Part shown: positions 3,107 through 60,440 of the stretch, piece after piece
Numbering within the stretch: the stretch's first letter is position 1
Layout: each line of letters begins with the position of its first letter
Source: Tridacna crocea
Taxonomy: Eukaryota > Mollusca > Bivalvia > Cardiida > Cardiidae
DNA length: 64,000 bases
Reading direction: 5' to 3'
Assembly: GCA_943736015.1 (NCBI GenBank)
Contig: OX031066.1
Location: forward strand, 8,994,245 to 9,058,244
Notes under the pieces: model-generated
The model's input: only the letters and a program-made list of their open reading frames with translations
Database searches by the model: none
What the model was told of the DNA's origin: nothing
Translations under genes and position numbers: made by a program

Positions 3107-3321
3107 TGGAAAATAGACTAGCGCATTCGTTTTCCTTTTGGGATTAATCATCGATTGGAAAAAAAGACATAGACGTTTGCTTTTCACGATTTGAATAAAT
3201 CTAATACATCCTGTTAGTCAAAATTTGTTACAGACAGTCTAGTTTTATTGAATTTTTTGTCCTACATTTTACTAATCTGTAATTATAATAGTTTTGTACT
3301 TGAATCCAGCAACAAACAAAC

Positions 3322-21022: not shown

Positions 21023-21313
21023 TATCTTTTATTTATCGTCGCTACCGGTTGCCCATCTGAGCGACACCCTCAGAAGACAGTTAGTTGTTACGGGGGAGAG
21101 TGTAATGATACAGGTCGAAACTACTGAGAATTCCGCCTGTTTCTTTAACATGGGCGGTGTATAGCACTGTCACACAGGACCTCGGTTTAATGTCTCATCT
21201 GAAAGAGTATTAGTAATTTTAGTTGGCCAGCAGGAGATTCGAACCCACAACATGTAGTGATCCGAAATGTTTTGTTCATGAGTCCTACGCTCTACCTACT
21301 GAGCTATACTGGC
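21023..21313 (-). mobile_element. tRNA-derived SINE, full length
   Basis: Read on the minus strand from 21313, it starts GCCAGTATAGCTCAGTAGG, a good A box (TAGCTCAGTAGG), followed by the B box GGGTTCGAATCTCC, so Pol III could transcribe it. The head resembles a whole tRNA with CTGCTGGC closing the acceptor-like stem. The body contains ATTAAACCGAGGTCCTGTGT, a conserved-looking core shared with the copy at 9815-10042. It may belong to the animal MetaSINE group (inference from memory). Confidence 0.8.
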
Positions 21314-21737: not shown

Positions 21738-22221
21738 ATGGCGGCAGGTTCACAAGAGGACAACCAGTATGGTTTAGCAGCCTTTTTCACTTATCTCAGG
21801 GAGATACCAAAGAAAGATGACAACCAATCAGGCACTGAATACAGAATTAGAGATGGGGCAGAGAAAGATAAACAGAATTTTGAGGAAATGTTTTGGAGTA
21901 TTCTTGGTTTTAAACCATTCACTGGCGATAAGGGTGATTCTTCGGTTGAGAATTTAACTCTTGATATGTGGAAAGACTGGGAACGTAAGATTAAAGCAGA
22001 AGATTTCAGTAAATGTAAATATGTTGTATTGGGATTCAGCTCCCATGGACGTGAAGAGACTGCAGATGGCATACATCAACCTGTCATACTTTTGAGTGAT
22101 GGTAAAACATTGCCCTTGTCTGACATTTTGAAAGTTTTGACAGTGGAAAGCAATTCAACACTAGAAGATAAGCCCAGAATAGTTTTTCTGTTTGCTTGCC
22201 GAGCGATAACTAAAGAAGCAG
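21738..22221 (+). CDS. caspase gene exon 1: complete p20 half
   Basis: Encodes residues 1-161 plus one base. The start context is CCAATATGG. p20 elements appear in order: strand 1 (QYGLAAFF), the RDGAEKD motif, LGFKPF, the NLTLDMW segment, YVVLGFSSHG with catalytic His103, and RIVFLFACRA with catalytic Cys154. The donor is GCAG|GTGTGT. Without splicing the frame stops 3 codons later (22230), so the p20 could only be extended by splicing. Confidence 0.85.
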
Positions 22222-25200
22222 GTGTGTTATGATTCTGTTATCATTCTATTCTTTTGTGTTTAAGAAATAATCTTCTTCCTATCGTGGGTTATCAGGGGTG
22301 TGGAAATATTCACATTTTCTACTTGTCCATGGACAAGTAAATCTAAAAAATCTACTTGTCCATCAGAGAAGCTTACTTGTCCAAAACAAAACAATTTTAT
22401 ATAGCATTCAAAGACCTAATTGAATGTAGTTTGTAGATAATTATCATCTTTTCACTATTTGAATTTGCTTTGTGTGGCTTTTTAATGATGATTATGAAAA
22501 ATCAGACTGACTTTCAAGGTACATCAATTTAAGAAAATAATGGCACTGTACATAGGTAGAGTAAATAGAAAGGTGCAAGAATTTAATAATTGAGAAAGAT
22601 TCAACAATTACACTATAGCTGCTTCAACCATGGCCAAATATCTCTGTGTTTGCATACACCCATGGGTGCCGAATGTAATACTTCTGCAGAACTGCTTACC
22701 AGCCATCATAATGATACAAGGGAATAATTATCTGTGGCTTGGTTATTGTGTCTGGAGATGTAGAGTTTGCATGATGCGCAGTGATAATATTTATGGTCTA
22801 GTTTTCAGTCAGGTGTTGTAAAATCAGACTTGCCTATTTGTAACTGGTCCGCCTCCGAGGGTCACAAAAACTGCTAGTCGTCTTTTGTACAGGCAGATGC
22901 CGCACGACAACAAATACAAGGTACAGAAAACACGTCTTTTCACTTCGGCTTCTCGATTTCGTCTGAGGCTACCTTTATGACGCGGGATTCTCCGGCGCTC
23001 ATTATGCATATGCGGGAATGGCTGATGTCAAACCAGTAAGATTACCACATACTTCCCCATTTTGAAAAGCCCCATCTTATCTAGGTCTGTTAATGCAGCA
23101 GCACCCTTTAAGCAACTATACAGAAGCCCAAGTCTGAAATTGCGGCTTGTCTAGGTGGATTTGGCCTGTTTCTCTACATACACGGCCATTAAGATCTAAA
23201 ACATAACTGATACTAACTGAAAGGACCACTGACACAGGCATCACTTTCAGTCTGGCAATTAGCACAGCAACTTCCCCTTTAAAGGTGGAAGTATTTATTC
23301 TAATTCCATTTCCAGGCATCAGAGCAAATCTCTTCCCACCAGAAATATGTCTAAACCGACTTTCTTCTGAAAATTCCTTTGGCTGGAAAATGCTTTTCCC
23401 TGGAAAAACCAAAACCACAGTGTGGAAAAGTCTCCATAAATTCCCTAGCCATACTGTAAAAGTCGGTATATGAATCCATGGATCCTCTGATATGGTAAAC
23501 AGCGGTTCATATGGTTTGAAGGTACTTGCTATTTAGACACCTTCTTGCCTATTGGGTCCCCTTTTTCTTCTCTCAGGTGAACTATCAATAAAAGACCTGC
23601 AGCTCCCATTATAAGGATCTTCTCTCAATTCCCTATAAACCCAAGGATCAGTAGTCTCTGAGCAGAGTAGTCAAGACATCCATATCTCACTTGTATCTGC
23701 TAGCACTGTACTGTTGTGAATCTCCTTTTCAAATATTACCCATTTTTTCTGGCGTCATTACTCATAAGACTCACTTCATTTGGATATATGTCAACTACTG
23801 ACCTCTGTATGTACCAAAAGGCAGCTTAATAGCTCCTTCCAATGGTAATACCAACAGTCTTCTTTCACCCCCTGAATCCATTTCCCTGACTGGGATTCAG
23901 GTTGGGAGTGAGAGACAGTTACCTACATTTATTTGATCCTTCCCTTCTTCTATCTGGGCAAGGATCTGACCTAGCTGATTTCTGCACTTTTACGCCCATG
24001 TCAATTCCCACATTTCTTATTGTCAGGATGACTAATTCAATTCCAATCGACTTCTTATTTTGAGTCTGAAGTACTTGGTCTACTGTTTCTGGATCCCTTT
24101 TCAACAGCTTAGAGTCTGCCAGAATGATATTATCCATACATGTCCAAAAGTACTTTTTCAGCTGCATCAAATTCAATGTCACTTCTCTATCTGGTGGTTC
24201 TTTTATATGGAATAACCATTTAACAGGTATTTGAACTTTTTCCCTTGTAACCTTTGACCTCGGAGTGTCTTCCTGGTACCATTTGTATATATTCTCTGTC
24301 AAGGGATGTGTTCTGTACCATTTCCATTCCCATAATGTATTTCCATTCCTGGTGTGATCTACCATCGTTATTGCAGCCTCCACATAGGAGCTGTTCAAAA
24401 CTACCTTGGACTGTATATACATTTACATGTACTGCCTCTGGATTACTACATGTACCATCTTTCTCTGGTTTGTGCCTCCTATTCAAGCTATGGTATATAT
24501 CAGATGTATCTATGGCACTTCTCAACGGCTCTTTAACCTTTTTACAGACTGTTCCAGGTAACACCAAGTTCCTTTTAGTGACTGATTCAAGGATATTTTC
24601 ACCTGTGTGTTTGAGTGAACGTTCCACCACTTCAATAGGTTTAGATAGTTCACGGTCATTGGCAATTACATACACTCTTGATACCCTTGATCTTTCTTTT
24701 TCGATGCTAATTGTCATTGGTACCTTTTCCTCCTTTATTTGTAGGCAGGATTCTGAGGTGTTGATATCAATCTTCCTCTCTTGTATTATGTCTATAGGAG
24801 CGACATAAATGTCCTCTTCAAATGCAGAAATGCCTAGTTTAACACGTACAGGGCCCACAGTGTAACCTTTAATGCTCATCTCTCTCCCAGCAGCATGTAG
24901 GACGGCATATTCTTTGATTGGGGGCTTTGGCTGTAGTTGATTATAAATCCTGTCTGACATTACTGTGACTTCCGCAGCTGAATCAACTATTGCTGTTGTT
25001 ACGAGTCAGGCGTAACTAGAAAGAAGAAGCCAGCAACAAACGATAACAATTAAGAGAATTTATTAACAAAAAATATCAAATAAACAGTGATAATATTACA
25101 ATAGTACAAAACAATACCTTAGACGTTAAATTCAAAAGACAAATTATTCCAGTCTTAATTCCAATCTGATCCTGATCCAAACTGAATGTAATCCAAGCAC

Positions 25201-28200
25201 TAATTATGACACAAACACAAGATAATCCCCACTGAAGTCTGGCAATCATGTATTAACTAGTGAACACTGAGATGTAAAAAGCTTTTCCTTTTATAATAAC
25301 AGGGAAACTTCCAGAAAATTCATGTAAAAAAGAGTTGCATAACTTCTAGTAATCAGATTGTAAAAAGGCCTGGAAACTTCCAGAACAGTATTCCACAATC
25401 CAGTAATCCAGTTCTAAAAATAGCAACAGGGAAAAACCATTCAAAAATAGATACACACATGAACAAAGCTAGGAATAACTGGGTATGTACATAACACTTC
25501 CCCCCTTGAAAAGAAAAAGAAAGGTTTATGAAATAAATCTTTCTTTTTTGCAATATTATTTATATACATGTATATAACACTTTAACTGAAGTATACATAG
25601 GAAATGACAAACTCAAATATTAATTATTTCAGACTAATGAAAATAGTCAGGTAATGAAATTACAATTTAAAAGAAAAAACAGTTTAAACTTGATTTAGGG
25701 AAAAACGACTATTGAAATTTCAAACTCTTGAAAGAGCATCTGGTATAATGTTATCTTTCCCTTTTATGTGTCTTATGTCAAGATTAAACTCTTGAAGTAA
25801 TAAACTCCACCTCAGTAATCTTTGATTCTTATTCTTAAGTTTGTGTAGAAAACTTAAAGGGTTATGATCACTGAATACAACAATTGGTGAAGTTGAAGAA
25901 GTTAAATAAACTTCGAACTGCTGGATTGCCAGAATTAAAGCAAGACACTCTTTTTCTATGGTAGAGTAATTTTTCTGATGTTTGTTAAATTTCTTAGAAA
26001 AGTAACAAACTGGGTGATCAATACCATTATTATCTTCTTGTAAAAGAACAGCACCAATACCAACATCACTTGCATCAACAGCTAATTTGAAACATTTGTC
26101 AAAATCAGGTGCCAAAAGAACTGGTGCACTCTTTAGTATGGCTTTTAGACGATCAAATGCATCTTGACATTTGTCATTCCATTTGAACTTTGTGCTTTTC
26201 TTTAGTAAATTTGTTAAAGGTTCAGCAATACCTGAGAAATTTTTACAGAATTTCCTATAGTAGCCAGCCATACCAAGAAATCGCATCAGCTGTCTTTTAC
26301 ATTTAGGCACAGGAAACTCAGAGATAGCATTGACCTTAGCTTCTAAAGGTTTAACTTGACCCTGTCCCACAAGATGTCCTAGAAATGTTACAGTAGCATG
26401 ACAAAATTCAGTTTTTGCAAGATTCACAGTCAGTTTCGCTTTACTGAGTCTGTCGAAGAACTTCCTGATTCTTTGAAGGTGGTCACTCCAACTGTCTGAG
26501 TAGATGATGACGTCGTCAATATATGCATCACAGCCATCTAATCCGCATATAACGTTGTTTATAAGTCGCTGAAACGTTGCAGGAGAATTTTTCATCCCAA
26601 ACGGCATAACTTTGTATTGGTACAGACCGTTTGGAGTAGCAAAGGCTGATACTTCTTTTGCTCTATCAGTCAGTGGAACTTGCCAGAATCCTTTTAGCAG
26701 GTCAAATTTGGTGACATATTTAGAATTTCCAACTTTGTCAATACAGTCATCAATTCTTGGTATTGGAAAAGAGTCTGTTTTTGTCACAGAGTTCACCTTA
26801 CGATAGTCAGTACACATTCTATAAGTTCCATTTGATTTGGGTACTAATATACATGGTGAACTGTAATTACTCTGGCTAGGTTCAATAAAGTCATTTTCCA
26901 GTAAGTATTTTACTTCTTCTTGGAGGTATTTCTGTTTCAAAGGATTCATTCTATATGGATGTTGCTTTATTGGTTTAGAATCTTCCACAATGACATCATG
27001 GTAGATTTTATCAGTTCTCGTGGGGATATCAGGAAATAAATGTTCATATTCATGTATCAACTGTTTCAGCTCTTCCTGCTGTGATGGTTCCAAGTGAGAT
27101 AGTTTGTTGTTAAGATTTCTCAAAATATCAGAATTCTCGAGTTTAGATGGACCAGGATCAGATTTATCAATAAAGTCCGAATTTACTTCAAGATCAGATA
27201 CATTTGATTCTTGTGGGACAGTGTTTACAACTGTAATTGGTTTTGAAATAGAGCTATCTCTGTCAAAGTATTCCTTTAACATATTTATATGACACATTTG
27301 TTTGTTTTTACGCCTTCCTGGAGTATTAAGTATATAGTTTAAATCACTTGTTTTCTTGTCAATAGTGTAGGGTCCAAAATATCTTGCCTGTAAAGGTCTG
27401 CCAGGTATTGGCAAAAGAGCAAGGACTTTGTCACCTGGTTTAAATTTTCTATCTATAACATGGTTGTCATATCTTGCTTTCATTTTGCCCTGAGATGTTT
27501 TAAGATTAGACCTAGCAACCTCACATGCCCTAGACAGTCTATTTCTGAAGTCAGAAACATACTGTAGTAAATTCAAAGGTGTTTCATCATTTGAGAGAAA
27601 TTTCTCTTTCAAAAGTTTTAAAGGTCCACGAACAGAATGGCCAAAAACTAATTCAAAAGGACTGAAACCAAGAGATTCTTGTACAGATTCTCTGACTGCA
27701 AATAGTAACATATGGATGCCCTCATCCCAATCTTTTTCAGTGTCAAAGCAATATGATCTTATCATATTTTTTAATGTCTGGTGAAATCTTTCTAAAGCAC
27801 CTTGACTTTCAGGGTGATAAGCGGATGACCTGTATTGCTTGATTCCTAATTCATGCATAACCTGTTGGAATATACCAGACATAAAATTTGACCCTTGATC
27901 AGACTGAACTGATTTTGGAAGACCAACAAATGTGAAAAATTTTATAAGAGCTTTGACTATTGACTTTGTTTTGATGTTCCTTAAAGGAATAGCTTCAGGA
28001 AAACGTGTAGAAGTACACATAATTGTTAAGAGATACTCATTTCCTGACTTGGTTCGAGGTAAAGGACCAACACAATCTATAAGTATCCTACTGAAAGGTT
28101 CATCAAAAGCAGGAATAGGTTGTAATTGAGCTTTGGGAATGGTTTGGTTGGGTTTACCTACCATTTGACATGTATGGCAAGTTTTACAATATTTAGAGAC

Positions 28201-31200
28201 ATCTGATTTGAGACCAGGCCAATAAAAATGAGTAATAATTTTGTGATAGGTCTTGTTTATACCTAGATGACCTGACATAGGACTTTCATGGGCTATACTT
28301 AGTATTTCATGACGATATGACTTTGGAACCACAATTTGGTGGTAAACAGCCCATTCATCATCAGCTGGGACATCAAATGGTCGCCATTTTCTCATAAGAA
28401 TCCCATTCTTTATATAGTAACACATTGGGACTTGTGAAATTTCATCTTCAGGTAAAGCCCTAAAAATTAATTTTGAAATCTCAGGATCAGTTTGCTGTTC
28501 CTGGATAAGCTGTGACTTTGACAGTGTGTCGTGACCTTGGTCAATAGACCGTGGTGGTGAATGACAAGACATTGACGAGTCTGTCTGAGTATCAGACAAA
28601 CTGGGATCAAGAGACTTTTTAATCTCATTATTAAAATACTGACCGATAAAAGTATCTGTCAAGTGAATATCAGAGTTTGAATTTTTCAAAATGGCCTTTT
28701 TAGCCATAGCTCGGGTAACTGCACAAGAAGGATACAAGTCAGGAATTTCCTGCTCGATAGGGTCATCTGTTTGACCTATATTTGGTGTGTCAGTTACAAG
28801 TGGATTAACCACAACCTTATCTCCAGCTAAGTCATTGCCTAGCAGTAAATGGACACCTTTAAAAGGTAAGGAAGGCTTAATACCAATAACCACAAGCCCA
28901 GTAACCAAATCTGATGACAAATTAACGTAATGGAGAGGGATATTAACAGTTCCACACTCTACACCCTGAATAAGGACACTAGTACCGGAAGAAGTCTTCT
29001 CAGAAAAAGGCAGTATATCTGCTAAAATAAGAGATTGAGAAGCTCCTGTGTCTCTTAAAATTTTAATAGGGGTAGGTGGGCAATTATCACCTGAAAGTGA
29101 AACAAAACCATTCAACATAAATGGTTCAAAAATCTCCATAGTAGAATCAGACTTTGGTTTTGTGACTATGTCAATTGTATTGGTTTTAATAGAAAACTGT
29201 GGCCTTGGTCTAAGAGTGGTGAGCCCTGTTGGCTTGGCTTCATCACTTTCTAACTTCCTTTTTAATTTCAAACATTCAGAAACAAGGTGACCAGGTTTCT
29301 TACAATAGTTACAAGTGGGTCGAGATAAGGGATATTGACTTTTGGTTTCACTAGTAGAATTGGGTTTGGGTGTATTGGATTGACTGGACATGCCAGATGA
29401 ATTACCAGACATAGATTTATTTTGGGGATGTGAGGAAGTAGGTTTTGGTTTATTAATAAAAGAAACTTTATGTGTAAGGTAGTAATTATCAGCCAGACGA
29501 GCTGCTTCTTCTAAAGTTTCAACTTGTTTTTCGTCTAAGAATGTCTTAACATCAAATTGAATACAACGTTTGAATTCTTCAACTAACATAAGTTGTCTGA
29601 GTTTATCAAAATTTTGGTCTATTTTCTTAGAACAGCACCATCTATCAAATAACTGTTCTTTGTTTCTAGCAAATTCAACATGAGTCTGGTTAGAATCTTT
29701 TTTACAATTTCTAAATTTTTGTCTATATGCTTCTGGGACCAGCTCATAACCTTTGAGAATAAGTTCTTTAACAGTCTCATAATGATGACATTGTTCAACA
29801 CCTAGTTGTGTATAAATTTCACGAGCTTTGCCTATCAAAACACTTTGCAGAAGTAAGGTCCAGTGCTCTTTTGGCCAATTTAAGTTTTCTGCAACTTTTT
29901 CAAAGTGTAGGAAGTATTTATCAACTTCTTTTTCTTGAAATGGAGGAACAAGCCTAATATGTTTTGTAACATCGAAATTGTATTCAATCTTTTGCTTCGG
30001 CTGATTTGCTCTTTCTTGCATTTCTATTTCCCTCATTCTTAATTGAAATTCTCTTTCCTTCTCTCTCTCTTCCCTTTCCCTTTCTTCTCTTTCCCTTTCT
30101 CTTTCTCTTTCCTTCTCTCTCTCTACTTTTTCTTCTCTCTGTCTTTCCCTTTCTCTTTCTTCTCTCTCCCTTTCTCTTTCCCTTTCTTCTCTCTCCCTTT
30201 CTCTTTCCCTTTCTCTTTCCTTCTCTCTTTCCTGAATTTCTAATTGTCTGATCTGAAATTTCAATTCAAGTTCTTTCGAACTTGAAACTGACTGAACGTC
30301 AACTATCAGGGAAAGAGCATTTTCATTGAAAATCTCCTCATCAACAAAATATTGTACCAAAATGTTCTTAATTTCATGTTTACGCATTGAAGATTTTATT
30401 TCAGACAATTTATAGTGCTTAGCAAGATTAAGCAAATCAGTCTTTTTACCTAAATTCAGTAACTCCACAGACGGTTCAGCCGTAAATTTATCTAAGTCAA
30501 AAGACATGTTTGTTTGTTGCTGGATTCAAGTACAAAATTGTATTATAATTACTGATTAGTAGACAAATGTGTTAGTCTTATTTTCCAATCGATGGTTAAT
30601 CCGAAAAGGAAAACGAATGCGTCAGTCTATTTTCCAATCCCGGACGAGCGCCCAATTTCTGTTACGAGTCAGGCGTAACTAGAAAGAAGAAGCCAGCAAC
30701 AAACGATAACAATTAAGAGAATTTATTAACAAAAAATATCAAATAAACAGTGATAATATTACAATAGTACAAAACAATACCTTAGACGTTAAATTCAAAA
30801 GACAAATTATTCCAGTCTTAATTCCAATCTGATCCTGATCCAAACTGAATGTAATCCAAGCACTAATTATGACACAAACACAAGATAATCCCCACTGAAG
30901 TCTGGCAATCATGTATTAACTAGTGAACACTGAGATGTAAAAAGCTTTTCCTTTTATAATAACAGGGAAACTTCCAGAAAATTCATGTAAAAAAGAGTTG
31001 CATAACTTCTAGTAATCAGATTGTAAAAAGGCCTGGAAACTTCCAGAACAGTATTCCACAATCCAGTAATCCAGTTCTAAAAATAGCAACAGGGAAAAAC
31101 CATTCAAAAATAGATACACACATGAACAAAGCTAGGAATAACTGGGTATGTACATAACACTGTTACTGGTATAGATTGCACTTTGCAGGTAACTGTAAAG

Positions 31201-52200: not shown

Positions 52201-55200
52201 TGTTTGTGTTTGAGAGACTTACATGTTTTGTGTTTGATAGACTTACATGTTTTGTGTTCATGCTTGAGAGACTTATATGATTTGTGTTTGAAAGACATGA
52301 TTTGTGTTTGTGTTTGAGAGAATTGCATTATTTTTCTTTGTGTTTGAGAGATTTACATGATTTGTGTTTGTGTTTGAGAGACTTACATGGTTTTTGTTTG
52401 TGTTTGAGAGATTTACATGATTTGTGTTTGTGTTTGAGAGACTTACATGGTTTTTATTTGTGTTTGAGGAATTTACATTATTTTTCTCTACTGATTAGAT
52501 GCAGAGGATGAAGGGGCAGAATTATATGTTCAAGGTGGCAGACAGGACCAGCAATCATCTGGTATGTTATTTTTGTAAATGTTGTATATATCTTACTGTT
52601 ATAACTACAGTTTGAGAAATTACAGTATGTGATTAATTGATTGTATGTAGCAAGCAATAAGTGCTCTTTTTCCCCTCTGTTTTAACTCTTAACCAAACGA
52701 CAAAATTTTAGACTGGTCAAAATTGAAAGCATTTGCAGAAGACAGAGCAAAAGTTACTGGAGAATTCAAAATTGTTTTGGGAAGGGTAGAAAACATTGTT
52801 TGAAAAGGAGAAAATGCTGGTTACCAGCATTTTCTCCTTTTCCAACAATGTTTTCAAAAGGCTTCTTTCACAGGGTCGTTAAAAGTCGGGATTGTGTGGT
52901 AATGGGTTAAACCCTTTTCTAAACAACATTAGTTAGACTCTTTTTGAATGGAAAACTTTTTCAGCTGACAATTTCAAAATTGAAGCAAGTAAGCTTAAGT
53001 TCTTTTATTCTTTACCAAACGACAAAAAATTAAATTGGTCCAAATTGAAAGAATTTGCAGACAAAAAAATAAATGTGGCTCAAAATGAAATTTAATTTGG
53101 AAAGGGTAGAAACACTGTGGGAAAAGGAGCAAATGCCAGTTACCAGCATTTTCTCCTTTTCCTACAATGTTTACAAAAGGTTTCTTTTTGAGGGTCGCTA
53201 AATGTTTGGATTGTATAGTAAAGAGTTAAAAGGTTAGAAAATATTGAAAATGCATTTTCTCCTTTTCTGTAGAAATTTTCAGAAGCTCATTTCCTCAGAA
53301 TGGTAAAAACATTGGACTGTGTAGTGAAATCTTCAAAAAGAGCAGCAGATAGTCAAAAGTTCTATTTGTGCATGGTTTGATTGGCTCTTTACCAAATGGT
53401 CCCATGTTTTTATTACTCTTTGGTAGAAGGCTTCATAAAAAAGTTGTGGCAATAAAGGGAAAATGCAAGAAATAAGAATTTCCTCTCTTTTCGATAGTGA
53501 TTATAAGCAGTTTGATACAAATCTATTGACCCTTTCCCAAACAAGCCCTGGTTTTTACGTGTTTGCAGTAAAAGTCTTTTGAAAACACTGCGGGAAAAGG
53601 AAAAATTGCCTGTAACGAACAATTTCTCCTTTTGCCACAGTGTTTTCTACCCTTTTTGAGAACTTTCTACCATTTTCTCAAAATCTAAAATTGTTGTCTG
53701 CAAATTCTTTCAGTTTGGAAGAGTGCAAAATTTATCGTTTGAGAAAGGGTTAACATGATTTCTTGTCTGCAAACACAGCACTCTGAATTCTGGACCATCT
53801 AGCAGTCTAACAGTTTGTCATGGGGCAAAGAGTTAAGCATGTTTCTTGTATGTCATTTAAAATGACATATACAATTTGACAGCAGTGGTAGAAATTAATG
53901 GATAAATTCAATTAATTGAGGCATGCAGTCGAAGATTGGGGAATGTTGTTTGTTTGCTAAAATGCAACATGAAAGAAATTCAAATAATCGAGTAGAACTA
54001 ATACTAATTATTTGTCCGAGTCTTTAAAAATCAGCAGATTATAATTTCGATACGCATTTATTTTTGGAATTATGCAGCATACTTAAAGAGTTTTTTTGAA
54101 AGAATCATTGTGGGACGTGACTGTCGTTACGAAGGAAATCACGTCTGTCTGAAAAACATGTCTTCCAAAATCCACTAACAAACTGAAAGAAAATCATGCA
54201 CATGAAAAAACAATATGGATGATTTAAGCATGTTCTCTTGGTTTGAAACATATGACAAAAGAAACAGGTTTTTCTGTGAATTGTCATTATAGCAGTTAAG
54301 GAACATGGATTTGCTTATAATTCTTTCAAGTATCACCATCCTAATGCTTCTAGCGCAAAATGGAATGAAATTTCTTCTTAGTTGGTGAATAAGGATTTAT
54401 ACTGTTTAGAGTAACTGTTTAATGTTTACAGCCACAGGCTCTGATGTTGGAGACCCCACATCACCATTAGCCCCGAGGAAAAAAAAATTTGAAGTAACTC
54501 CAGTGTCTGAGAAAGAAGATAAGCATTACTCGGCAGAAAATATTCCAAACAATTTTCTAGTGGGTATGTATTAACCTGTTACTATATGGCAAAATTTTAG
54601 ATCTATCCAAATTGAAAGCATTTGCATACGACAATTTCAAAGTAGCTCAAATGGTGTAACTTTACTTTGATAGGGTAGAAAACTTTGCGGGAAAAGGAGA
54701 AAATGCTGGTAACCAGCATTTTCTCCTTTTTATACGCCCGTCGAAGACGGGACGTATTATGGGATCACCCGTGGCGGGCGGGCGGGCGGGCGGCGTCCAG
54801 TTCTTTGTCCGGAGCATATCTCCAAAACTATACAAGCTAGGGTTATGAAATTTCATGGGTGGATAGATCTCATCGAGGCGGAGTGCAGTGCACAGGAATC
54901 ATAACTCTTGCTTGCTTAATTTTTGAGTTATTGCCCTTTGTTGTTTTTCATACTTGAATTTTGTCCAGAGCATATCTCCAAAACTATACTAGCTAGGGTT
55001 ATGAAATTTCATGGGTGCATAGATCTCATCGAGGGGGAGTGCAGTGCACAAGAATCATAACTCTTGCTTGCTTAATTTTTGAGTTATTGCCCTTTGTTGT
55101 TTTTCATACTTGAATTTTGTCCGGAGCATATCTCCAAAACTATACTAGCTAGGGTTATGAAATTTCATGGGTGGATAGATCTCATTCAGGGGGAGTGCAG

Positions 55201-58200: not shown

Positions 58201-60440
58201 CCCCCATTAAGTTTTGGAGAATTTATCCTTCCGTAGAAAGAATTTGTAGGAGAGGAAAAAAAGTAACTGAAGAATATTGGATGAATGTAGGAATGCAAGC
58301 ATAACTTGGCAGAAATGTGCTGGTCAGTTTTCTTGTTGGCAGATATTGTATCTTGAACTATGTAGGGCTTTTCATTTAAACTAAAGAACATCAGCGAAAA
58401 TGAAAAAAAAACACTGGTAATCAGTATTTTATGTCTTATTATACCCTTACAAAAACAAAAACGAAAAAACCCAACCCAATTCCACTGTTCCATGTATTTA
58501 ATTTGTCTACACATGCTTTCAGTTTAGCAAGCAAAAAATTGTGTAACTTATGATACATGTAGGTTGGCTTTTTTGGAAGAATGTCTAGGGGTTGTCATGG
58601 CCCTGTATGCTCTGTACAGTTGTAGTCTCGTTTCAAAAACATGGACATTTTTTTATCACTCTCTTGCACTCCAGATCATTCACATTCACCTCTGTAGTGG
58701 GCTCAGAAAATAGTCTGTCATTGCGTGATACTTTCGTCACATGACCAGGACTCAAAATGGAGAGACAAATGCCGGTGAAAGAAAGACCAATGTCAATTAC
58801 TTTGTGTCCTGTTCAAACAGCTTACGGCCAGTAAGACTAAGTGGTAGGAAATGTGAATAAGAGGGATTTTCTGATAAGCTTAAATGTCTTTTAAAGGACG
58901 ATAACTTGTTTTTTAATCTAATAAACTAAGATCCATCTGGGTGTCAAAACTGTTGTCATCATTCATAGGCGCAGCCATTTTTGTTTAAATTGACATAAGA
59001 TTCTAATCAGTAAAGAATCTTGAAAAAAAATAGTTCCATTGTATACAGGTAAATTAATCAGTTCGAATGCATCTATAATGTATCCAAAATCATATTTCCT
59101 TTGTCTACTTTATAATGTTACACATGAAACAGTTAAATAGAAACAAAACATCTTTTCCTTGGTTTGACAAGATTCTGTCATTTAGCCCATTGCAGAGATG
59201 TATGGTGAGAGTAACTAATGATGACTCTGCTCGGAGATTGATTTTTTCAATTTTTTGATGTCCTTTTTTGTTGAGATACATTTGGATAGAATTGCTAGTG
59301 CAGTGACTATCCTCAATTCTTGAAAAGAAATTGGCAGAGCTATAGATTTATACTAGCATCCGCTGATCTCAAGTCCTACATGTATATGCTGCCAACTGCA
59401 CAAGTGGGCTTGGCACTAACCAACAATGGCTTAACTCTTTACCACACAATGACAACTTTTAACGACCCTGGGAAAGAAGCCATTCGAAAACATTTTAAGA
59501 AAAGGAAAAAATGCAGGTAACCCCCATTTTATCCTTTTTCCAAAATGTTTTATACTCCTTAAAAAAAAATGGTTGCACTGTTTGGGCCACACTGAAATTG
59601 TCAATTGCAAATGCTTTCAATTTGGACAAAGCTTAACCCATTACCACACAATCCCTACTTTTGACGCCCCTGAGAAAGAAGCCTTTTGAAAACACTGTGG
59701 GAAAAGGAGAAAATGCTGGTAACCAGCATTTTCTCCTTTTCCCAGATTGTTTTCTACCCTTTTCAAAACAAATTTCAAATTTTCAGTCACTTTTATTTTG
59801 TTGTCTGCAAATGTTTTCAATTTGGACCAGTCTAAAATGTTGTCGTTTGGTAATGGGTTAAACTTTGTCGTCTGGTAAATGAAACTTACAAGCTGATAGT
59901 AGAGACCCAAATATTGAGTAACTTTTTGAGAAAAATACCTACTTTTCAGATAGTGTAGACACAAGATCAAACTGCATATTCCATGCAGTCTGAGCTTGAT
60001 CTACACTATCTGCCACAAGTCATGTAGTCACACTCAGCAACCTTAGGATTAACAATAATACTAGTGATGGTTAGGTTCTCTGACCTTGGTGTTACATGGA
60101 AAATTGCATCAAACACCTTAAAAAAAGAACTGTCATTCTGCTATGGTTTGTCTTTGCAGTATATGGTGCAAATAGGGGAAGAATGAACAAGAGAAATGAA
60201 GAGACAGGCAGCTGGGCTTTAGATAATCTTTTAAAAGTTTTAATAAACGAGGAAAGGGATGAAGTGAACATTTTTCACCTTTTAACTAAAGCAGCATTTG
60301 AGATGTCACAGAGGAACTCAAAGAACCCAGATGATGAAAGTTTGAGTAACAAAAAGGGGATTTTGTGTTTTTCCCACACTTTGACAGAAGATATAATGTT
60401 ACAGAAAAGGAAGATACCTCCCCCTGCTCCTTTATTTTAA
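21738..60440 (+). CDS. caspase-family protein with Fn3 domain between p20 and p10 (7 exons)
   Basis: Exons 21738-22221, 45528-45581, 47921-48036, 50190-50352, 52499-52561, 54432-54563 and 60160-60440 sum to 1293 nt (430 aa plus stop). Phases run 1,1,0,1,1,1 and all six introns have GT..AG borders. Residues 10-161 form a caspase p20: Arg38 in RDGAEKD (the substrate-pocket R-x-G-x-x-x-D motif), catalytic His103 in FSSHG, catalytic Cys154 in FACRA (family QACRG). There is no room for a CARD or DED prodomain. About 182-272 is a fibronectin type III domain. A charged linker (273-328, PRKKK) leads to p10 at about 330-430 with RNEETGSW (Arg349, 354-356). C14 proteases are cytosolic Asp-specific cysteine proteases of apoptosis or inflammation. 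Cys154 and the GSW motif are 200 residues apart, against about 50 in ordinary caspases. Start chosen for ATGG with A at -3. The gene model is inference from splice sites, phase and homology. Confidence 0.78.
22814..23049 (-). repeat. 3' LTR of element C
   Basis: Reads TGTGGTAATC...CAACA on the minus strand. The purine-rich AAAATGGGGAAGTA just outside it (about 23050-23063 on the + strand as its complement) is the likely polypurine tract. Confidence 0.88.
23050..24219 (-). pseudogene. unrecognised 3' coding remnant of element C
   Basis: Minus-strand open frames at 24422-23919 and 23418-23116 are in different phases and match no retroelement domain I know. They could be decayed tether or spacer sequence left after loss of RT and integrase, or a non-canonical third ORF. 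Confidence 0.4.
24220..24996 (-). pseudogene. protease part of element C, 3' half
   Basis: On the minus strand the frame begins at the B insertion site with a retropepsin-like VDSAAEVTVMSDRIY (the catalytic triad D-T/S-G reads D-S-A here), followed by the beta-rich TVGPVRVKLGISAF segment. About 260 codons are open. The upstream half of the same frame is at 31164-31337, 6.2 kb away, in the same phase once B is disregarded. After the protease the expected RT is absent. Confidence 0.7.
24997..25496 (-). repeat. 3' LTR of element B
   Basis: On the minus strand it starts TGTTATGTACATACCCAG and ends ACGCCTGACTCGTAACA. It lacks the ~55-bp internal duplication of the copy A LTRs. Confidence 0.96.
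25497..25514 (-). promoter_or_regulatory. polypurine tract of element B
   Basis: Minus strand CTTTTCAAGGGGGGAAG abuts the 3' LTR; one G longer than in copy A. Confidence 0.85.
25720..30507 (-). CDS. Gag-Pol polyprotein, Gmr1-type retrotransposon (intact)
   Basis: A single 1595-residue frame with no internal stop or frameshift. In order: SAP-like helices (about 1-60), Glu/Arg tract (about 90-160), a capsid whose C-terminal part resembles a SCAN domain (about 262-350), CCHC knuckle CNYCKKPGHLVSEC (about 397-410), retropepsin DTGAS (about 484), integrase with HHCC finger (about 741-775), DDE residues in LIDCVG, DQGSN and the Glu of GALERF (about 808, 868, 905) and a GPY motif, then RT with YIDD (about 1329) and RNase H (DASDVG about 1477) ending PDALSRV. 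Integrase before RT defines the Gmr1 arrangement. Gag and Pol in one frame means no programmed frameshift is needed. It is 86-90% or more like copy A by eye, which carries the lesions B lacks. Confidence 0.96.
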   Translation of the reverse strand: MSFDLDKFTAEPSVELLNLGKKTDLLNLAKHYKLSEIKSSMRKHEIKNILVQYFVDEEIFNENALSLIVDVQSVSSSKELELKFQIRQLEIQEREKEREREREREREEREREREREERERERQREEKVEREKEREREREREEREREEREKEREFQLRMREIEMQERANQPKQKIEYNFDVTKHIRLVPPFQEKEVDKYFLHFEKVAENLNWPKEHWTLLLQSVLIGKAREIYTQLGVEQCHHYETVKELILKGYELVPEAYRQKFRNCKKDSNQTHVEFARNKEQLFDRWCCSKKIDQNFDKLRQLMLVEEFKRCIQFDVKTFLDEKQVETLEEAARLADNYYLTHKVSFINKPKPTSSHPQNKSMSGNSSGMSSQSNTPKPNSTSETKSQYPLSRPTCNYCKKPGHLVSECLKLKRKLESDEAKPTGLTTLRPRPQFSIKTNTIDIVTKPKSDSTMEIFEPFMLNGFVSLSGDNCPPTPIKILRDTGASQSLILADILPFSEKTSSGTSVLIQGVECGTVNIPLHYVNLSSDLVTGLVVIGIKPSLPFKGVHLLLGNDLAGDKVVVNPLVTDTPNIGQTDDPIEQEIPDLYPSCAVTRAMAKKAILKNSNSDIHLTDTFIGQYFNNEIKKSLDPSLSDTQTDSSMSCHSPPRSIDQGHDTLSKSQLIQEQQTDPEISKLIFRALPEDEISQVPMCYYIKNGILMRKWRPFDVPADDEWAVYHQIVVPKSYRHEILSIAHESPMSGHLGINKTYHKIITHFYWPGLKSDVSKYCKTCHTCQMVGKPNQTIPKAQLQPIPAFDEPFSRILIDCVGPLPRTKSGNEYLLTIMCTSTRFPEAIPLRNIKTKSIVKALIKFFTFVGLPKSVQSDQGSNFMSGIFQQVMHELGIKQYRSSAYHPESQGALERFHQTLKNMIRSYCFDTEKDWDEGIHMLLFAVRESVQESLGFSPFELVFGHSVRGPLKLLKEKFLSNDETPLNLLQYVSDFRNRLSRACEVARSNLKTSQGKMKARYDNHVIDRKFKPGDKVLALLPIPGRPLQARYFGPYTIDKKTSDLNYILNTPGRRKNKQMCHINMLKEYFDRDSSISKPITVVNTVPQESNVSDLEVNSDFIDKSDPGPSKLENSDILRNLNNKLSHLEPSQQEELKQLIHEYEHLFPDIPTRTDKIYHDVIVEDSKPIKQHPYRMNPLKQKYLQEEVKYLLENDFIEPSQSNYSSPCILVPKSNGTYRMCTDYRKVNSVTKTDSFPIPRIDDCIDKVGNSKYVTKFDLLKGFWQVPLTDRAKEVSAFATPNGLYQYKVMPFGMKNSPATFQRLINNVICGLDGCDAYIDDVIIYSDSWSDHLQRIRKFFDRLSKAKLTVNLAKTEFCHATVTFLGHLVGQGQVKPLEAKVNAISEFPVPKCKRQLMRFLGMAGYYRKFCKNFSGIAEPLTNLLKKSTKFKWNDKCQDAFDRLKAILKSAPVLLAPDFDKCFKLAVDASDVGIGAVLLQEDNNGIDHPVCYFSKKFNKHQKNYSTIEKECLALILAIQQFEVYLTSSTSPIVVFSDHNPLSFLHKLKNKNQRLLRWSLLLQEFNLDIRHIKGKDNIIPDALSRV
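30637..30654 (-). promoter_or_regulatory. primer-binding site of element B
   Basis: Minus strand TGGGCGCTCGTCCGGGAT, one base different from the tRNA-Pro-type site of copy A (TGGGGGCTCGTCCGGGAT), 5 bp inside the 5' LTR. Confidence 0.85.
30660..31159 (-). repeat. 5' LTR of element B
   Basis: No difference found against 24997-25496 on reading through all 500 bases. It contains ATTATAAAAGG (TATA-like) and TTAATAAATTC (poly-A-type signal) on the minus strand. Confidence 0.96.
31164..31337 (-). pseudogene. protease part of element C, 5' half
   Basis: Minus-strand frame from Met at 31337 up to the B insertion point. It leads in the same phase into the D-S-A motif at about 24985. It is out of frame with the preceding gag (stop at 31406), so a frameshift or a separate ORF lies between. 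Confidence 0.65.
31406..32239 (-). pseudogene. gag of element C with CCHC knuckle
   Basis: 277 codons. The N-terminal two thirds match a retrotransposon Gag capsid (FAEEQQWTGRERKNNL, LQGRASDYF, FVNLRQKCDESIYEWADRV). A zinc knuckle CHSCNEVGHIKKDC lies near the C-terminus. The expected beginning of the capsid is in another frame in the preceding ORF (YDGTG at its end), so a short deletion or frameshift near 32225-32240 separates the two. Confidence 0.8.
32205..32768 (-). pseudogene. N-terminal gag of element C with helix-hairpin-helix domain
   Basis: 187 codons from MDKVLINYCLGRKLL. Residues about 12-58 are a ComEA-like helix-hairpin-helix pair: LLALPGIGERLAAEIL, then VDLEELRSIRGLRI. Such modules bind DNA backbone through the GIG-type hairpin. 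A Tyr/Ser-rich linker (SGAYGSTYYGDYERRSYNS) follows, then PRHISYDGTG, which normally opens the capsid. It overlaps the following gag ORF in a different frame by 35 nt. A helix-hairpin-helix at the start of Gag is unusual in my experience. Confidence 0.75.
32769..33568. other. untranslated leader of element C
   Basis: AT-rich, no coding frame of interest. Lies between the primer site and the gag start on the minus strand. Confidence 0.5.
33569..33586 (-). promoter_or_regulatory. primer-binding site of element C, tRNA-Ser type
   Basis: Minus strand TGGCGCTGCGAGCAATTC. Its complement ends GCTCGCAGCGCCA and continues back into TTCGAAT, the T-loop of a tRNA, so pairing may extend beyond 18 nt. 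The tail resembles tRNA-Ser 3' ends, the primer of Mag-like gypsy elements. Confidence 0.7.
33588..33823 (-). repeat. 5' LTR of element C
   Basis: 236 bp; differs from the 3' LTR by e.g. GACGTGGG against GACGCGGG and CAAAAGAACAAACAC against CACGACAACAAATAC. Confidence 0.88.
34746..35104. other. intron 1 sequence, nothing recognised
   Basis: A 143-codon frame (34879-35310) runs through this into a MITE and is chance. Confidence 0.35.
35105..35306 (-). mobile_element. piggyBac-type hairpin MITE, left end lost
   Basis: A near-perfect core hairpin at about 35146-35192. Its right TTAA (35307-35310) is also the left target of the next, unrelated MITE family. Confidence 0.8.
35311..35828 (-). mobile_element. 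MITE family 2 (AGGTGG), complete
   Basis: TTAA at 35307-35310 and 35829-35832; opposite orientation to 15596-16133. Confidence 0.82.
35833..36228 (-). mobile_element. MITE family 2, truncated by the next copy
   Basis: Begins AGATGGCCCTTCAG right after the previous TTAA. It stops inside the GGCTACGTAGCC block where TTAA (36229-36232) precedes the next copy. Confidence 0.75.
36233..36772 (-). mobile_element. MITE family 2, complete
   Basis: TTAA on both sides (36229-36232 and 36773-36776). It appears inserted into the preceding copy at its own internal TTAA; a further part of that family (36777-36880) follows. Confidence 0.8.
36880..37965 (+). mobile_element. Helentron-like element with 156-bp tandem repeats, array 1
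   Basis: Starts with a hairpin (CCCCGCTGAAAAGGCGGCGGGG) and GTCC microsatellite, then about seven units beginning GTCCGGAGCATATCTCCAAAA at 36974, 37130, 37287, 37443, 37599, 37754 and 37911 (spacing 155-157). Each unit contains GAGTTATTGCCCTTTGT. No transposase. Confidence 0.75.
38003..40090 (+). mobile_element. hairpin-ended (Helentron-like) element, AGCTCACCTGAG family
   Basis: Opens AGCTCACCTGAGCACAACGTGCTCAGG and a GTCC run (38058-38095). It closes CTCAGGTGAGCGATATAGGACCATCATGGTCCTCTTGTT, i.e. a subterminal inverted repeat plus a terminal stem-loop followed by CTTGTT. The interior is AT-rich and non-coding. Confidence 0.68.
40097..40760 (+). mobile_element. Helentron-like element with ~154-bp repeats, array 2
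   Basis: TATCCCCCTAGTGGGAGGGGGG at the start, then units with GTCC at 40325, 40479 and 40633 (spacing 154). More diverged than array 1. Confidence 0.65.
41132..41350 (-). mobile_element. piggyBac-type hairpin MITE
   Basis: TTAA at 41128-41131. Almost head-to-head with the next copy in the opposite orientation, 10 bp away. Confidence 0.8.
41361..41587 (+). mobile_element. piggyBac-type hairpin MITE
   Basis: Ends GGAAAGGG before TTAA (41588-41591); left target decayed to GTTTA. Confidence 0.82.
41641..42833 (+). mobile_element. hairpin-ended (Helentron-like) element, decayed
   Basis: The right end GAGCTGTCATGGCTCTCTTGG matches the terminal hairpin of 63108-63913. Internal ~150-bp units share AATCAATAGRGTT...AGCTATTGATGA blocks. 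The left boundary is uncertain. Confidence 0.45.
42869..43081 (-). mobile_element. piggyBac-type hairpin MITE
   Basis: TTAA at 42865-42868; the right end is decayed (AAGTAGTAAAG). Confidence 0.75.
43142..45195 (+). mobile_element. MITE family 2 interrupted by a hAT-like element
   Basis: AGGTGG at 43142 and CCACCT at 45195, with TTAA on both sides (43138-43141, 45196-45199). The ~485 bp of its own sequence is split by 43567-45134. Confidence 0.85.
43567..45134. mobile_element. hAT-like non-autonomous element with 6-bp target duplication
   Basis: 1568 bp. Ends CAGTGCTCGCGCTGCC and GGGCCAGAGCTAGCACTG, flanked by TATAAG (43561-43566 and 45135-45140). The intact target GGAGTATAAGGATGA is seen at 16072-16086. 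It carries two MITE-like GTGGGAAAAGGAGCAC...TTTTCC relics (44660-44730, 44840-44900). No transposase frame. Confidence 0.8.
45528..45581 (+). CDS. caspase gene exon 2: inter-subunit linker start
   Basis: 54 nt, 18 codons (DWFEVQMPQDSVSNVLPD), phase 1 to 1. Strong acceptor TTTTTCCTTTCACAG and donor GATG|GTGAGT. It contributes the segment between the p20 and the Fn3 domain. Confidence 0.72.
45626..45720 (+). repeat. 5' fragment of a Helentron-like element
   Basis: ATGCCCGTCAAGACGGGACGTATTATGGGATCACC then GTCCAGGTCTTTGTCCG, matching the first ~90 bp of the element at 54731. Confidence 0.65.
45828..46008. mobile_element. palindromic MITE, uninterrupted copy
   Basis: ATGTTTAAGAAATAATCTTC at the left and GAAGATTATTTTGATTCTAAC at the right. 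The interior has further inverted blocks (GAGTTATGAGGCTCAAT / ATTGCGCCTCATAACTC) and TTCAATAAACCAC. It is the reference for the split copy at 22256/34745. Confidence 0.75.
46039..46257 (-). mobile_element. piggyBac-type hairpin MITE
   Basis: Right TTAA 46258-46261; left target decayed. Confidence 0.8.
46322..46541 (-). mobile_element. piggyBac-type hairpin MITE, complete
   Basis: TTAA 46318-46321 and 46542-46545. The core reads GCTCGTAACGAGC at the apex instead of GCTGGTAACCAGC, a compensated change that keeps the hairpin paired. Confidence 0.88.
46689..46902 (-). mobile_element. piggyBac-type hairpin MITE
   Basis: Left TTAA 46685-46688; right end decayed to GGTACAGACC. Confidence 0.75.
47374..47589 (+). 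mobile_element. piggyBac-type hairpin MITE
   Basis: Right end GGTAATGGG; the TTAA at 47590-47593 is shared with the next copy. Confidence 0.85.
47594..47785 (+). mobile_element. piggyBac-type hairpin MITE, right end decayed
   Basis: Starts CTCTTTACCACACAG directly after the shared TTAA, same orientation as its neighbour. Confidence 0.78.
47921..48036 (+). CDS. caspase gene exon 3: first half of the Fn3 domain
   Basis: 116 nt, phase 1 to 0, acceptor TTTATTTCTACAG and donor CTCA|GTAAGT. It encodes NPQLVGLSDTFVKYVV and VLEYDIRWTKQ, the A-to-C strand part of an Fn3 fold. Confidence 0.78.
48257..49215 (-). mobile_element. piggyBac-type hairpin MITE split by a pogo-like element
   Basis: The left half ends ...AAAATGCTGGTA at 48345 and the right half resumes TACCACAATGTTTTCTACCC at 49089. 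The insertion sits at the apex of the hairpin, and part of the right arm is missing. Confidence 0.78.
48346..49088. mobile_element. pogo/Tigger-like MITE
   Basis: 743 bp between TA dinucleotides (48344-48345 and 49089-49090). Ends CAGTCAGGCCGCGATACACC and, on the other strand, CAGTCAAACCCCGTTATAAC. CAGTC-type ends and a TA target fit the pogo/Tigger branch of Tc1/mariner. Non-coding. Confidence 0.75.
49440..49560 (-). repeat. GGATCC-type repeat end with C-run
   Basis: GGGCGGATCCAGAGGGGGGACTGGGGG followed by a 13-14-base C-run. The inverted G/C tracts could pair. A common repeat-end motif, but the family is not identified. Confidence 0.4.
49709..49736 (+). repeat. poly-C tract, 28 bases
   Basis: Uninterrupted run of C, intron 3; length is likely unreliable in assembly. 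Confidence 0.9.
49792..49915 (-). mobile_element. piggyBac-type hairpin MITE, right half missing
   Basis: Left TTAA 49788-49791; breaks off after the core hairpin. Confidence 0.7.
50190..50352 (+). CDS. caspase gene exon 4: second half of the Fn3 domain
   Basis: 163 nt, phase 0 to 1, acceptor ATCTTGTCTTAG and donor TTAG|GTAAGT. It holds the Fn3 signatures: LLKIDKLDRNTSYCIIV (the L-x-P/x-T-x-Y tyrosine corner) and TRGFGPFSVPDYVRTL (the G-x-GPfS...T end). Confidence 0.85.
50400..51560 (+). mobile_element. Helentron-like element, diverged array
   Basis: AGCTCTACTGGCTGAAAGCCAGCAGAGCTTATG hairpin at the start with GTCTGTCCGTC microsatellite, then ~160-bp units containing ACCATAACTCTACC...GAGTTATTACCCTTT. 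The right boundary is not clear. Confidence 0.55.
51629..51849 (+). mobile_element. piggyBac-type hairpin MITE, reference copy
   Basis: 221 bp between perfect TTAA targets (51625-51628 and 51850-51853). Left end CCCTTTACCAAATGATAAG, right end CGGAAAGGG. The central palindrome spans about 51728-51798: GTGGGAAAAGGAGAAAATGC, apex TGGTAACCA, then its complement. CCC...GGG ends with TTAA targets fit piggyBac. There is no coding sequence, so it must be moved in trans. This defines the family used for the other copies; strand is assigned by the CCCTTTACCAAA end being first. Confidence 0.9.
51889..52111 (+). mobile_element. piggyBac-type hairpin MITE
   Basis: Right TTAA 52112-52115, left target TTTTA. 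Only 35 bp after the previous copy, same orientation. Confidence 0.85.
52165..52490 (+). repeat. 30-bp minisatellite next to exon 5
   Basis: About ten imperfect units of TGTGTTTGAGAGACTTACATGATTTG, in-phase enough to translate as repeats of LCLRDLHD (52284-52511). It ends about 10 bp before the exon 5 acceptor, so it forms the 3' end of intron 4. Confidence 0.85.
52499..52561 (+). CDS. caspase gene exon 5: acidic linker
   Basis: 63 nt, phase 1 to 1 (AEDEGAELYVQGGRQDQQSS), acceptor TACTGATTAG, donor TCTG|GTATGT. Joins the Fn3 domain to the p10 side and contains possible Asp cleavage positions. Confidence 0.68.
52686..52906 (+). mobile_element. piggyBac-type hairpin MITE, complete
   Basis: TTAA 52682-52685 and 52907-52910; the second is shared with the following fragment. 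Confidence 0.88.
52911..53005 (+). mobile_element. piggyBac-type hairpin MITE, fragment
   Basis: ACCCTTTTCTAAACAACATTAG...GACTCTTTTTGAATGGAAA after the shared TTAA; only the left ~95 bp remain. Confidence 0.6.
53009..53224 (+). mobile_element. piggyBac-type hairpin MITE
   Basis: TCTTTACCAAACGACAAAAAATT start, right TTAA 53225-53228. A further decayed core follows at 53232-53335. Confidence 0.8.
53385..53520 (-). mobile_element. piggyBac-type hairpin MITE, fragment
   Basis: CTCTTTACCAAATGGTCCCATG and a decayed core; right part lost at the next copy. Confidence 0.55.
53530..53749 (-). mobile_element. piggyBac-type hairpin MITE
   Basis: CCCTTTCCCAAACAAGCC start, right TTAA 53750-53753. Same subfamily as 46322-46541 (GTTTTTACGTG, apex AACGA). 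Confidence 0.85.
53760..54431. other. intron 5, nothing recognised
   Basis: Unique-looking AT-rich sequence without coding or repeat signature. Confidence 0.35.
54432..54563 (+). CDS. caspase gene exon 6: basic linker and start of p10
   Basis: 132 nt, phase 1 to 1, acceptor TTTAATGTTTACAG, donor GTGG|GTATGT. It contains PLAPRKKKFEVTPVSEKED and ends in IPNNFLV. Together with the next exon (VYGA) this matches the IP..DFL.AYS strand at the start of caspase p10. Confidence 0.78.
54575..55861 (+). mobile_element. piggyBac-type hairpin MITE split by a Helentron-like element
   Basis: Left part 54575-54730 after TTAA (54571-54574), right part about 55813-55861 before TTAA (55862-55865). The break is inside the TTTTCTCCTTTTCCCAC arm. 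Confidence 0.82.
54731..55812 (+). mobile_element. Helentron-like element with exact 156-bp tandem repeats
   Basis: Opens TATACGCCCGTCGAAGACGGG (hairpin) and a GGCGGGC run. It then has seven GTCC-starting units at 54807, 54963, 55119, 55275, 55431, 55587 and 55743, every spacing being 156. It ends GCGACAATTTGCCGCTCTTGTT. The split MITE gives its empty site (CCTTTTCCACAATG type): there is no target duplication and insertion is next to T's, as described for Helentrons. Confidence 0.8.
55920..56180 (-). mobile_element. MITE family 2, partial
   Basis: Contains GGCGGGAAATCTAAAAATACC, GGCTACGTAGCC and the AAATACCCACCT end before TTAA; the left half is missing. Confidence 0.72.
56181..56605. other. 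intron 6, nothing recognised
   Basis: No gene or known repeat seen. Confidence 0.3.
56610..57546 (+). mobile_element. Helentron-like element with 156-bp repeats and GTCC microsatellite
   Basis: Opens TTATACGCCCGAAGGGTCGTATTATG, then (GTCC)n at 56650-56722, then units with GTYCAGGCCATAACTTC at 56907, 57063, 57219 and 57375 (156 apart). It closes CCCCTTCGGGCGTATATGCG, GCCGCTTTGCGAAGCTCTTGTT. The CGCCCGAAGGG / CCCCTTCGGGCG pair are subterminal inverted repeats. Confidence 0.8.
57861..58080 (-). mobile_element. piggyBac-type hairpin MITE
   Basis: TTAA 57857-57860 and 58081-58084. The hairpin arm has GGAGACC for GGTAACC at the apex. Confidence 0.82.
58150..58205 (+). repeat. CT-rich low-complexity tract
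   Basis: (CCCTCCCT)n-like, 56 bases, purely pyrimidine apart from a few G/A. Confidence 0.85.
58206..58654. other. intron 6, nothing recognised
   Basis: A 128-codon minus-strand frame across this tract is produced partly by the CT-rich repeat and has no domain. Confidence 0.35.
58655..59245 (-). repeat. third, inverted copy of the 540-bp repeat
   Basis: CACTCTCTTGCACTCC...GACAAGATTCTGTCATTTAGCCC runs opposite to 12331-13405 and shares its start context (CTCAAAATGGAGAGAC). Confidence 0.8.
59435..59632 (-). mobile_element. piggyBac-type hairpin MITE, right tip missing
   Basis: Left TTAA 59431-59434; ends at GGACAAAGC immediately before the TTAA (59633-59636) of the next copy. Confidence 0.78.
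59637..59857 (-). mobile_element. piggyBac-type hairpin MITE, complete
   Basis: TTAA 59633-59636 and 59858-59861. CCCATTACCACAC and GGTAATGGG ends and a near-perfect core hairpin. Confidence 0.9.
59949..60012. repeat. 64-bp palindrome in intron 6
   Basis: CAGATAGTGTAGA...GATCAA.CTGCAT pairs with ATGCAG..TTGATC.TACACTATCTG. The same half-sequence begins the 503-bp duplication at 10544. Confidence 0.85.
60160..60440 (+). CDS. caspase gene exon 7: p10 half and stop codon
   Basis: 281 nt, entered in phase 1 behind GGTTTGTCTTTGCAG. It encodes the caspase small subunit: RNEETGSWALDNLLKVL (family R-N-x-x-x-GSWFIQ-x-L), EVNIFHLLTKAAFEM (family D-x-x-x-ILT-x-V-N) and ILCFSHTLTED (family P-C-x-x-S-T-LTK). 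It ends in a short proline-rich tail. A methionine at 60096 would give a longer unspliced frame, but the splice site, phase and homology all begin at 60160. Confidence 0.88.

Follow-up and report, generated by a model that had tools for sequence, protein, structure and literature searches.

The segment between p20 and p10 of a caspase is normally a short activation linker, and its cleavage is the main switch controlling effector caspases. The paracaspase MALT1 pairs a caspase-like domain with β-sandwich (Ig) domains; these flank the protease domain rather than lying between p20 and p10, unlike the fibronectin type III (Fn3) domain described here. For the bivalve Mytilus coruscus, 47 caspases have been catalogued, and in the part of that report available two of them have an FN3 or PB1 domain that the authors place in prodomains (PMC10967218). 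Before aligning its sequences, a study across bivalves trimmed away insertions and the intersubunit linker, so that insertions of this kind could have gone unnoticed; its main text, as far as available, contains neither ‘fibronectin’ nor ‘fn3’ (PMC7836458). Fn3 modules of class 1-1 occur in shuffled metazoan proteins, intracellular titin and twitchin included, and class 1-1 modules, Fn3 among them, are what exon shuffling usually moves, according to the accessible sections of PMC8001218.

We found a caspase gene on the + strand between 21738 and 60440 of the window, by which we mean the whole 64,000-nucleotide stretch of DNA analysed. Seven exons, identified by exon reading and splice phase, chain into a single product of 430 residues that runs from p20 through an exon of 18 residues, an Fn3 domain encoded by two exons and two linker exons to p10 and the stop codon. 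The modelled features are given below, with ranks over 2132 donors, 2138 acceptors and 284 candidate exon readings, for which the splice-site weights were not trained on this genome.

21738..22221, + strand: exon 1, start codon and caspase p20, ending in phase 1 (PF00656; donor rank 6 of 2132)
22222..45527, + strand: modelled intron 1, 23.3 kb long; its phase-1 position is common to several related caspases
45528..45581, + strand: exon 2, spacer, DWFEVQMPQDSVSNVLPDG including the split end codons, phase 1-1 (splice score 22.3)
47921..48036, + strand: exon 3, predicted first half of Fn3, phase 1-0 (acceptor rank 6 of 2138, donor rank 124 of 2132)
50190..50352, + strand: exon 4, predicted second half of Fn3, phase 0-1 (donor rank 5 of 2132, acceptor rank 47 of 2138)
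52499..52561, + strand: exon 5, acidic linker, DAEDEGAELYVQGGRQDQQSS including the split first codon, phase 1-1 (splice score 13.1)
54432..54563, + strand: exon 6, linker and p10 N-terminus IPNNFLV, phase 1-1 (acceptor rank 186 of 2138, donor rank 83 of 2132)
60160..60440, + strand: exon 7, p10 (Arg349, GSW356, LTED) and stop codon (PF00656; acceptor rank 87 of 2138)

Every junction in this model is GT/AG, there are no internal stops, and the phases of exons 1 to 7 (in/out) follow as 0/1, 1/1, 1/0, 0/1, 1/1, 1/1 and 1/0. The five small exons with matching phases that the preliminary description had placed between p20 and p10 were thus all readable and could be chained. The insert that they create measures 18 + 93 + 21 + 44 = 176 residues, close to the 170 or so first estimated, and in the model it takes the place of the short cleavable linker expected of a caspase. 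The joined product matched Peptidase_C14 (PF00656) over residues 38–415 with 69.5 bits and E=4.6e-19, far exceeding either half alone: the open reading frame (ORF) piece 21738–22232, containing p20, gave E=2.6e-10, and the p10 ORF at 60084–60440 gave E=2.8e-4 with 21.1 bits (cutoff 21.4). Removal of exons 2 and 5 left a score of 70.8 bits, indicating that both exons are neutral for the caspase match. Searched against the PDB, a joined product had a best match of E=2.1e-8, and the best 60 of 142 distinct sequences (E<=1) were all caspase chains; these matches were carried mainly by p10, with p20 contributing weakly (7–11 bits in the two alignments displayed). Homology backs five of the seven exons, namely p20, both Fn3 halves, the IPxxFL exon and p10. 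An NCBIfam search gave no match. We conclude that a caspase with an Fn3 domain separating its catalytic halves is confirmed as a gene model, which bears out at that level the p20–Fn3–p10 architecture originally proposed.

Among the papers listed in searches of the open-licence literature, no title or opening of an abstract pointed to a caspase that has Fn3 between its p20 and p10. The earlier statement that no caspase of this order had been described is uncontradicted within that literature, but a bivalve caspase with FN3 has been published, with the domain assigned to the prodomain (PMC10967218, in the part available). The M. coruscus protein is like ours in that a single bivalve polypeptide combines FN3 with a caspase domain, and unlike it in the position that its authors give for FN3; the comparison is with a published description, and the two may or may not be the same gene.

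Apart from the insertion, the gene resembles effector-type caspases (MEROPS C14A; caspase-3/7) in its p20/p10 profile, the catalytic His and Cys, both S1 arginines, the GSW motif, a p10 that starts with IPxxFL and the lack of a detected prodomain. It departs from them in its p20–p10 segment, of about 176 residues with Fn3, in the pentapeptide FACRA and in a Phe in place of the S1 Gln. The catalytic residues were recovered in exon 1 under the numbering first assigned, as His103 (in SSHG) and Cys154, and the last exon likewise contains the p10 with GSW and LTED that had been read there. Pfam detected no CARD or DED in the reading or upstream of exon 1, and in the + frames of 11.7–21.6 kb no upstream prodomain exon rose above noise (DUF5814, E=0.17, 12 bits, cutoff 25). 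Since neither CARD nor DED was found, the caspase looks effector-like and would presumably be cytosolic. The p20 has no close copy elsewhere in the genome: at E<=0.01 the matches were p20 itself and a 30% match at C1:76347545. Just upstream of exon 1, at 21225–21313 on the − strand, lies a marginal tRNA match (Rfam, 30 bits; gathering threshold 29).

The active-site pentapeptide is FACRA and not QACXG; in the S1 pocket Arg38 and Arg349 are retained and Gln is replaced by Phe. Deviations in the pentapeptide are known in bivalve caspases (PMC7836458, PMC10967218), and in the available part of the M. coruscus report the standard form is kept in only 11 of 51 CASc domains (PMC10967218). Enzyme activity is thus uncertain on sequence grounds, given FACRA and the altered S1 Gln, yet both S1 arginines are present. 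It is a genuine possibility, short of probable, that the protein is made as modelled and works as a pseudo-enzyme or as a caspase of altered specificity, with Fn3 as a scaffold. The replacement of QACXG by FACRA and the Phe at the S1 Gln position favour this, as does the loss or alteration of S1 residues in many M. coruscus caspases, as described in the accessible text of PMC10967218; retention of His103, Cys154, Arg38, Arg349 and the GSW motif speaks against it. On architecture it agrees with the explanation that we prefer below, so that the two do not exclude each other.

We next consider the Fn3 domain, which had been placed at about residues 182–272 and spans about 180–273 in our model, with a Pfam core at 201–266. 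In the raw frame, exon 4 showed half a match to PF09294 at about 50193–50297 (E=0.062). Joined exons 3 and 4 reached 20.6 bits (E=5.1e-4) against PF00041, below the Pfam gathering cutoff of 25, and 18.5 bits (E=2.5e-3) against PF09294, for which the cutoff is 21; inside joined products, the PF00041 score was 17 and 16.8 bits. At the N-terminal end of the domain, about 20 residues were left without a profile match. Against the PDB, the two exons gave 18 matches at E<=10, the best being pikachurin (E=0.011). Of these 18, 13 are Fn3 proteins (pikachurin, four ROS1 chains, PTPRD, EphB1, EphB4, contactin, three of integrin β4 and EphA1); the other five, the second-best match among them, are not Fn3.

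The exon pair was also scored among decoys enumerated on both strands of the window; the set comprised 34,753 exon pairs that were splice-compatible, had the size of an Fn3 domain and were separated by no more than 6 kb. Under a profile built on 30 Fn3 domains taken from this genome the pair scored 9.3 bits, whereas decoys scored up to 11.0 bits, the top ones being built on pieces of exon 1; this profile was narrow, as 24 of its 30 domains came from a single cluster at C18:8.81–8.88 Mb. A second, broader profile of 48 same-genome domains (40 new and 8 of the first 30) was made after the first had failed to separate the pair. With it, the ten best of the 34,753 pairs were all variants of exons 3 and 4 with slightly shifted ends (E=0.016–0.037), and the exact pair ranked sixth with 15.8 bits (E=0.024 over all pairs), compared with 9.9 bits for the best pair without overlap to exon 4. 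The top of 20,000 shuffled sequences (19,766 reported) reached 14.2 bits under the same profile. Exon 4 combined with alternative first exons also reached at most 14.2 bits, indicating that exon 3 contributes to the match. On these profile and decoy scores we take the Fn3 domain to be real. This genome is rich in Fn3 exons: scoring 150 of 321 candidates gave at least 143 matches at E<=0.001. The exons at C18:8813363–8882888 form a dense same-strand cluster that would represent one or more very large Fn3 genes.

The exons that flank Fn3 differ in how they were identified. Exon 2 was called by splice score and phase, not by homology; its score of 22.3 tops the 284 readings, equalled by the same exon read in another frame, and it is the best 1-1 candidate in its intron, while symmetric candidates on the minus strand of the window peak at 19.4. 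Exon 5 is the least certain exon, third by splice score among the 1-1 candidates in its intron; its start, DAEDEG, bears a short resemblance to the start of the linker exon of a related locus, L019 (DAEDKGTPS), in the same phase. The stretches encoded by exons 2 and 5 each matched the genome once, at their own positions. Exon 6 has a middling splice score (117 of 284) and clear homology: IPNNFLV aligns with the IP..DFL of L001 and L002, two readings of related caspases that have no intron. Exon 2 provides two candidate Asp cleavage sites ahead of Fn3, MPQD171|S and VLPD179|G, and exon 6 provides one behind it, EKED323|K. A further Asp after Fn3, DVGD301|P, is followed by Pro, and additional Asp residues are found inside the Fn3 domain.

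A search of the genome for related caspases gave at least 29 matches, this gene itself not among them. We examined 16 related sources (L001, L002 and L009–L022), two of which (L013 and L014) are pieces of one place. The active-site motif was found in 8 of the 16, and in five of these eight (L010, L011, L012, L017 and L019) a phase-1 donor lies at the motif or within about 6 residues past it; in L001, L002 and L021 the reading continues through the motif without a donor. L018 has the motif region and no clear donor, and the acceptor of the linker exon is good and in phase 1 in L018 and L019. Given the phase-1 donor near the motif in five of eight loci, a class 1-1 Fn3 cassette at this position looks like the product of exon shuffling. 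The modelled Fn3 cassette has symmetric flanks, entering and leaving in phase 1, and in this it is like the class 1-1 modules of titin and twitchin, which have phase-1 introns at both ends (PMC8001218, as far as available). The difference is one of setting, as Fn3 here lies inside a protease domain, compared with the strings of modules in shuffled metazoan proteins.

Raw scans of the corresponding introns of L010, L012, L015, L018 and L019 found Fn3 in none of the five, and recurrence therefore lends the arrangement no confirmation; such scans would miss many split domains, because the same type of scan saw only half of the Fn3 in the window. When the part comprising Fn3, linker and p10 was searched against the genome at E<=1, eight matches resulted: the four exons of the query themselves, three places with a caspase p10, and a weak one at C1:75486680 (E=0.68), whose surroundings had no clear Fn3 exon by eye. 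Three related loci have features of their own. L017 contains four successive p10-like readings downstream of its p20 exon (at 5309, 5560, 5810 and 6758; GTWFIQAVV three times and GTWFIQALV once), possibly an array of duplicated p10 exons. In L018, at 1164–2888, the catalytic His is replaced by Tyr (SYGGD) and the motif is QACGT, and it may be a pseudo-caspase or a pseudogene. L005 (C11:5346239), on the same chromosome as the window, has a paracaspase-like p20 with AGHG and DIC.

The explanation that we consider probable is that a short-prodomain caspase received a class 1-1 Fn3 cassette by shuffling into a phase-1 intron past the active site, and that its mRNA most likely includes the cassette. 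The exon readings, their phases and order, and the position of the donor in related genes are observed, and from them we infer the shuffling event and the inclusion of Fn3 in mRNA. The two-exon cassette, in phase 1 at both ends, would have entered just after the active-site Cys, giving a zymogen with the order p20, short spacer, Fn3, acidic and proline-rich linker, and p10. Cleavage at both sides of Fn3 would release the domain, whereas after a cut on one side it would stay attached to either the large or the small subunit, where it may act as a docking or tethering module or guard access to the linker; cleavage, docking and activity are likewise what we infer. A somewhat unlikely elaboration is that the Fn3 linker acts as a receptor module, in which ligand binding or alternative splicing would gate linker cutting, subunit docking and activation.

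Exon 2, exons 3 and 4 together, exon 5 and exon 6 are each symmetric 1-1, so that the frame survives skipping and splice forms with and without Fn3 are possible. The main transcript might then be an ordinary caspase of about 298 residues made from exons 1, 6 and 7, an open and ordinary-looking reading, with the Fn3 exons a rare cassette or a usually skipped relic. We regard this as unlikely, as exons 3 and 4 rank 9 and 5 of the 284 candidate exon readings and stay open, which would be unexpected of a neutral relic. That the Fn3 exons instead belong to a different gene, nested or starting inside the caspase introns, is suggested by the abundance of Fn3 exons in this genome but strikes us as very improbable: the exons lie on the same strand as the caspase, their phases fit on both sides, and the Fn3 domain is single. 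Across the three + frames of 22.2–61.2 kb, which cover the introns, no Pfam domain of a second gene was found besides p10 and the half match to PF09294; on the minus strand of the introns the scan covered two retrotransposon pieces only.

If transcripts confirm that the cassette is included as we propose, the gene would represent a new way of building, and perhaps of controlling, a caspase. A natural caspase with a folded linker domain would reveal how much the activation switch tolerates and would offer a built-in coupling of activation to a binding event. Fn3 in the linker suggests one route of diversification for the expanded caspases of invertebrates, and a phase-1 intron beside the active site would make this spot receptive to class 1-1 modules, which predicts more insertions in invertebrate caspases.

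The window also contains retrotransposon stretches and tandem repeats, one of the former within intron 1.

3304–8356, + strand: LTR-retrotransposon stretch 1, broken into three frames, very similar to stretch 2
25720–30525, − strand: LTR-retrotransposon stretch 2, antisense in intron 1, very similar to stretch 1
36968–37912, 54804–55753 and 56889–57479: three tandem arrays of 156-bp units

In stretch 2 the integrase (27424–28323) lies upstream of the reverse transcriptase/RNase H (25723–26502), an unusual order known from Gmr1-type elements. The consensus sequences of the arrays at 36968–37912 and 54804–55753 have TTTGTCCGGAGCATATCTCC in common, and the array at 56889–57479 has the related TTTTTGTCCAGG.
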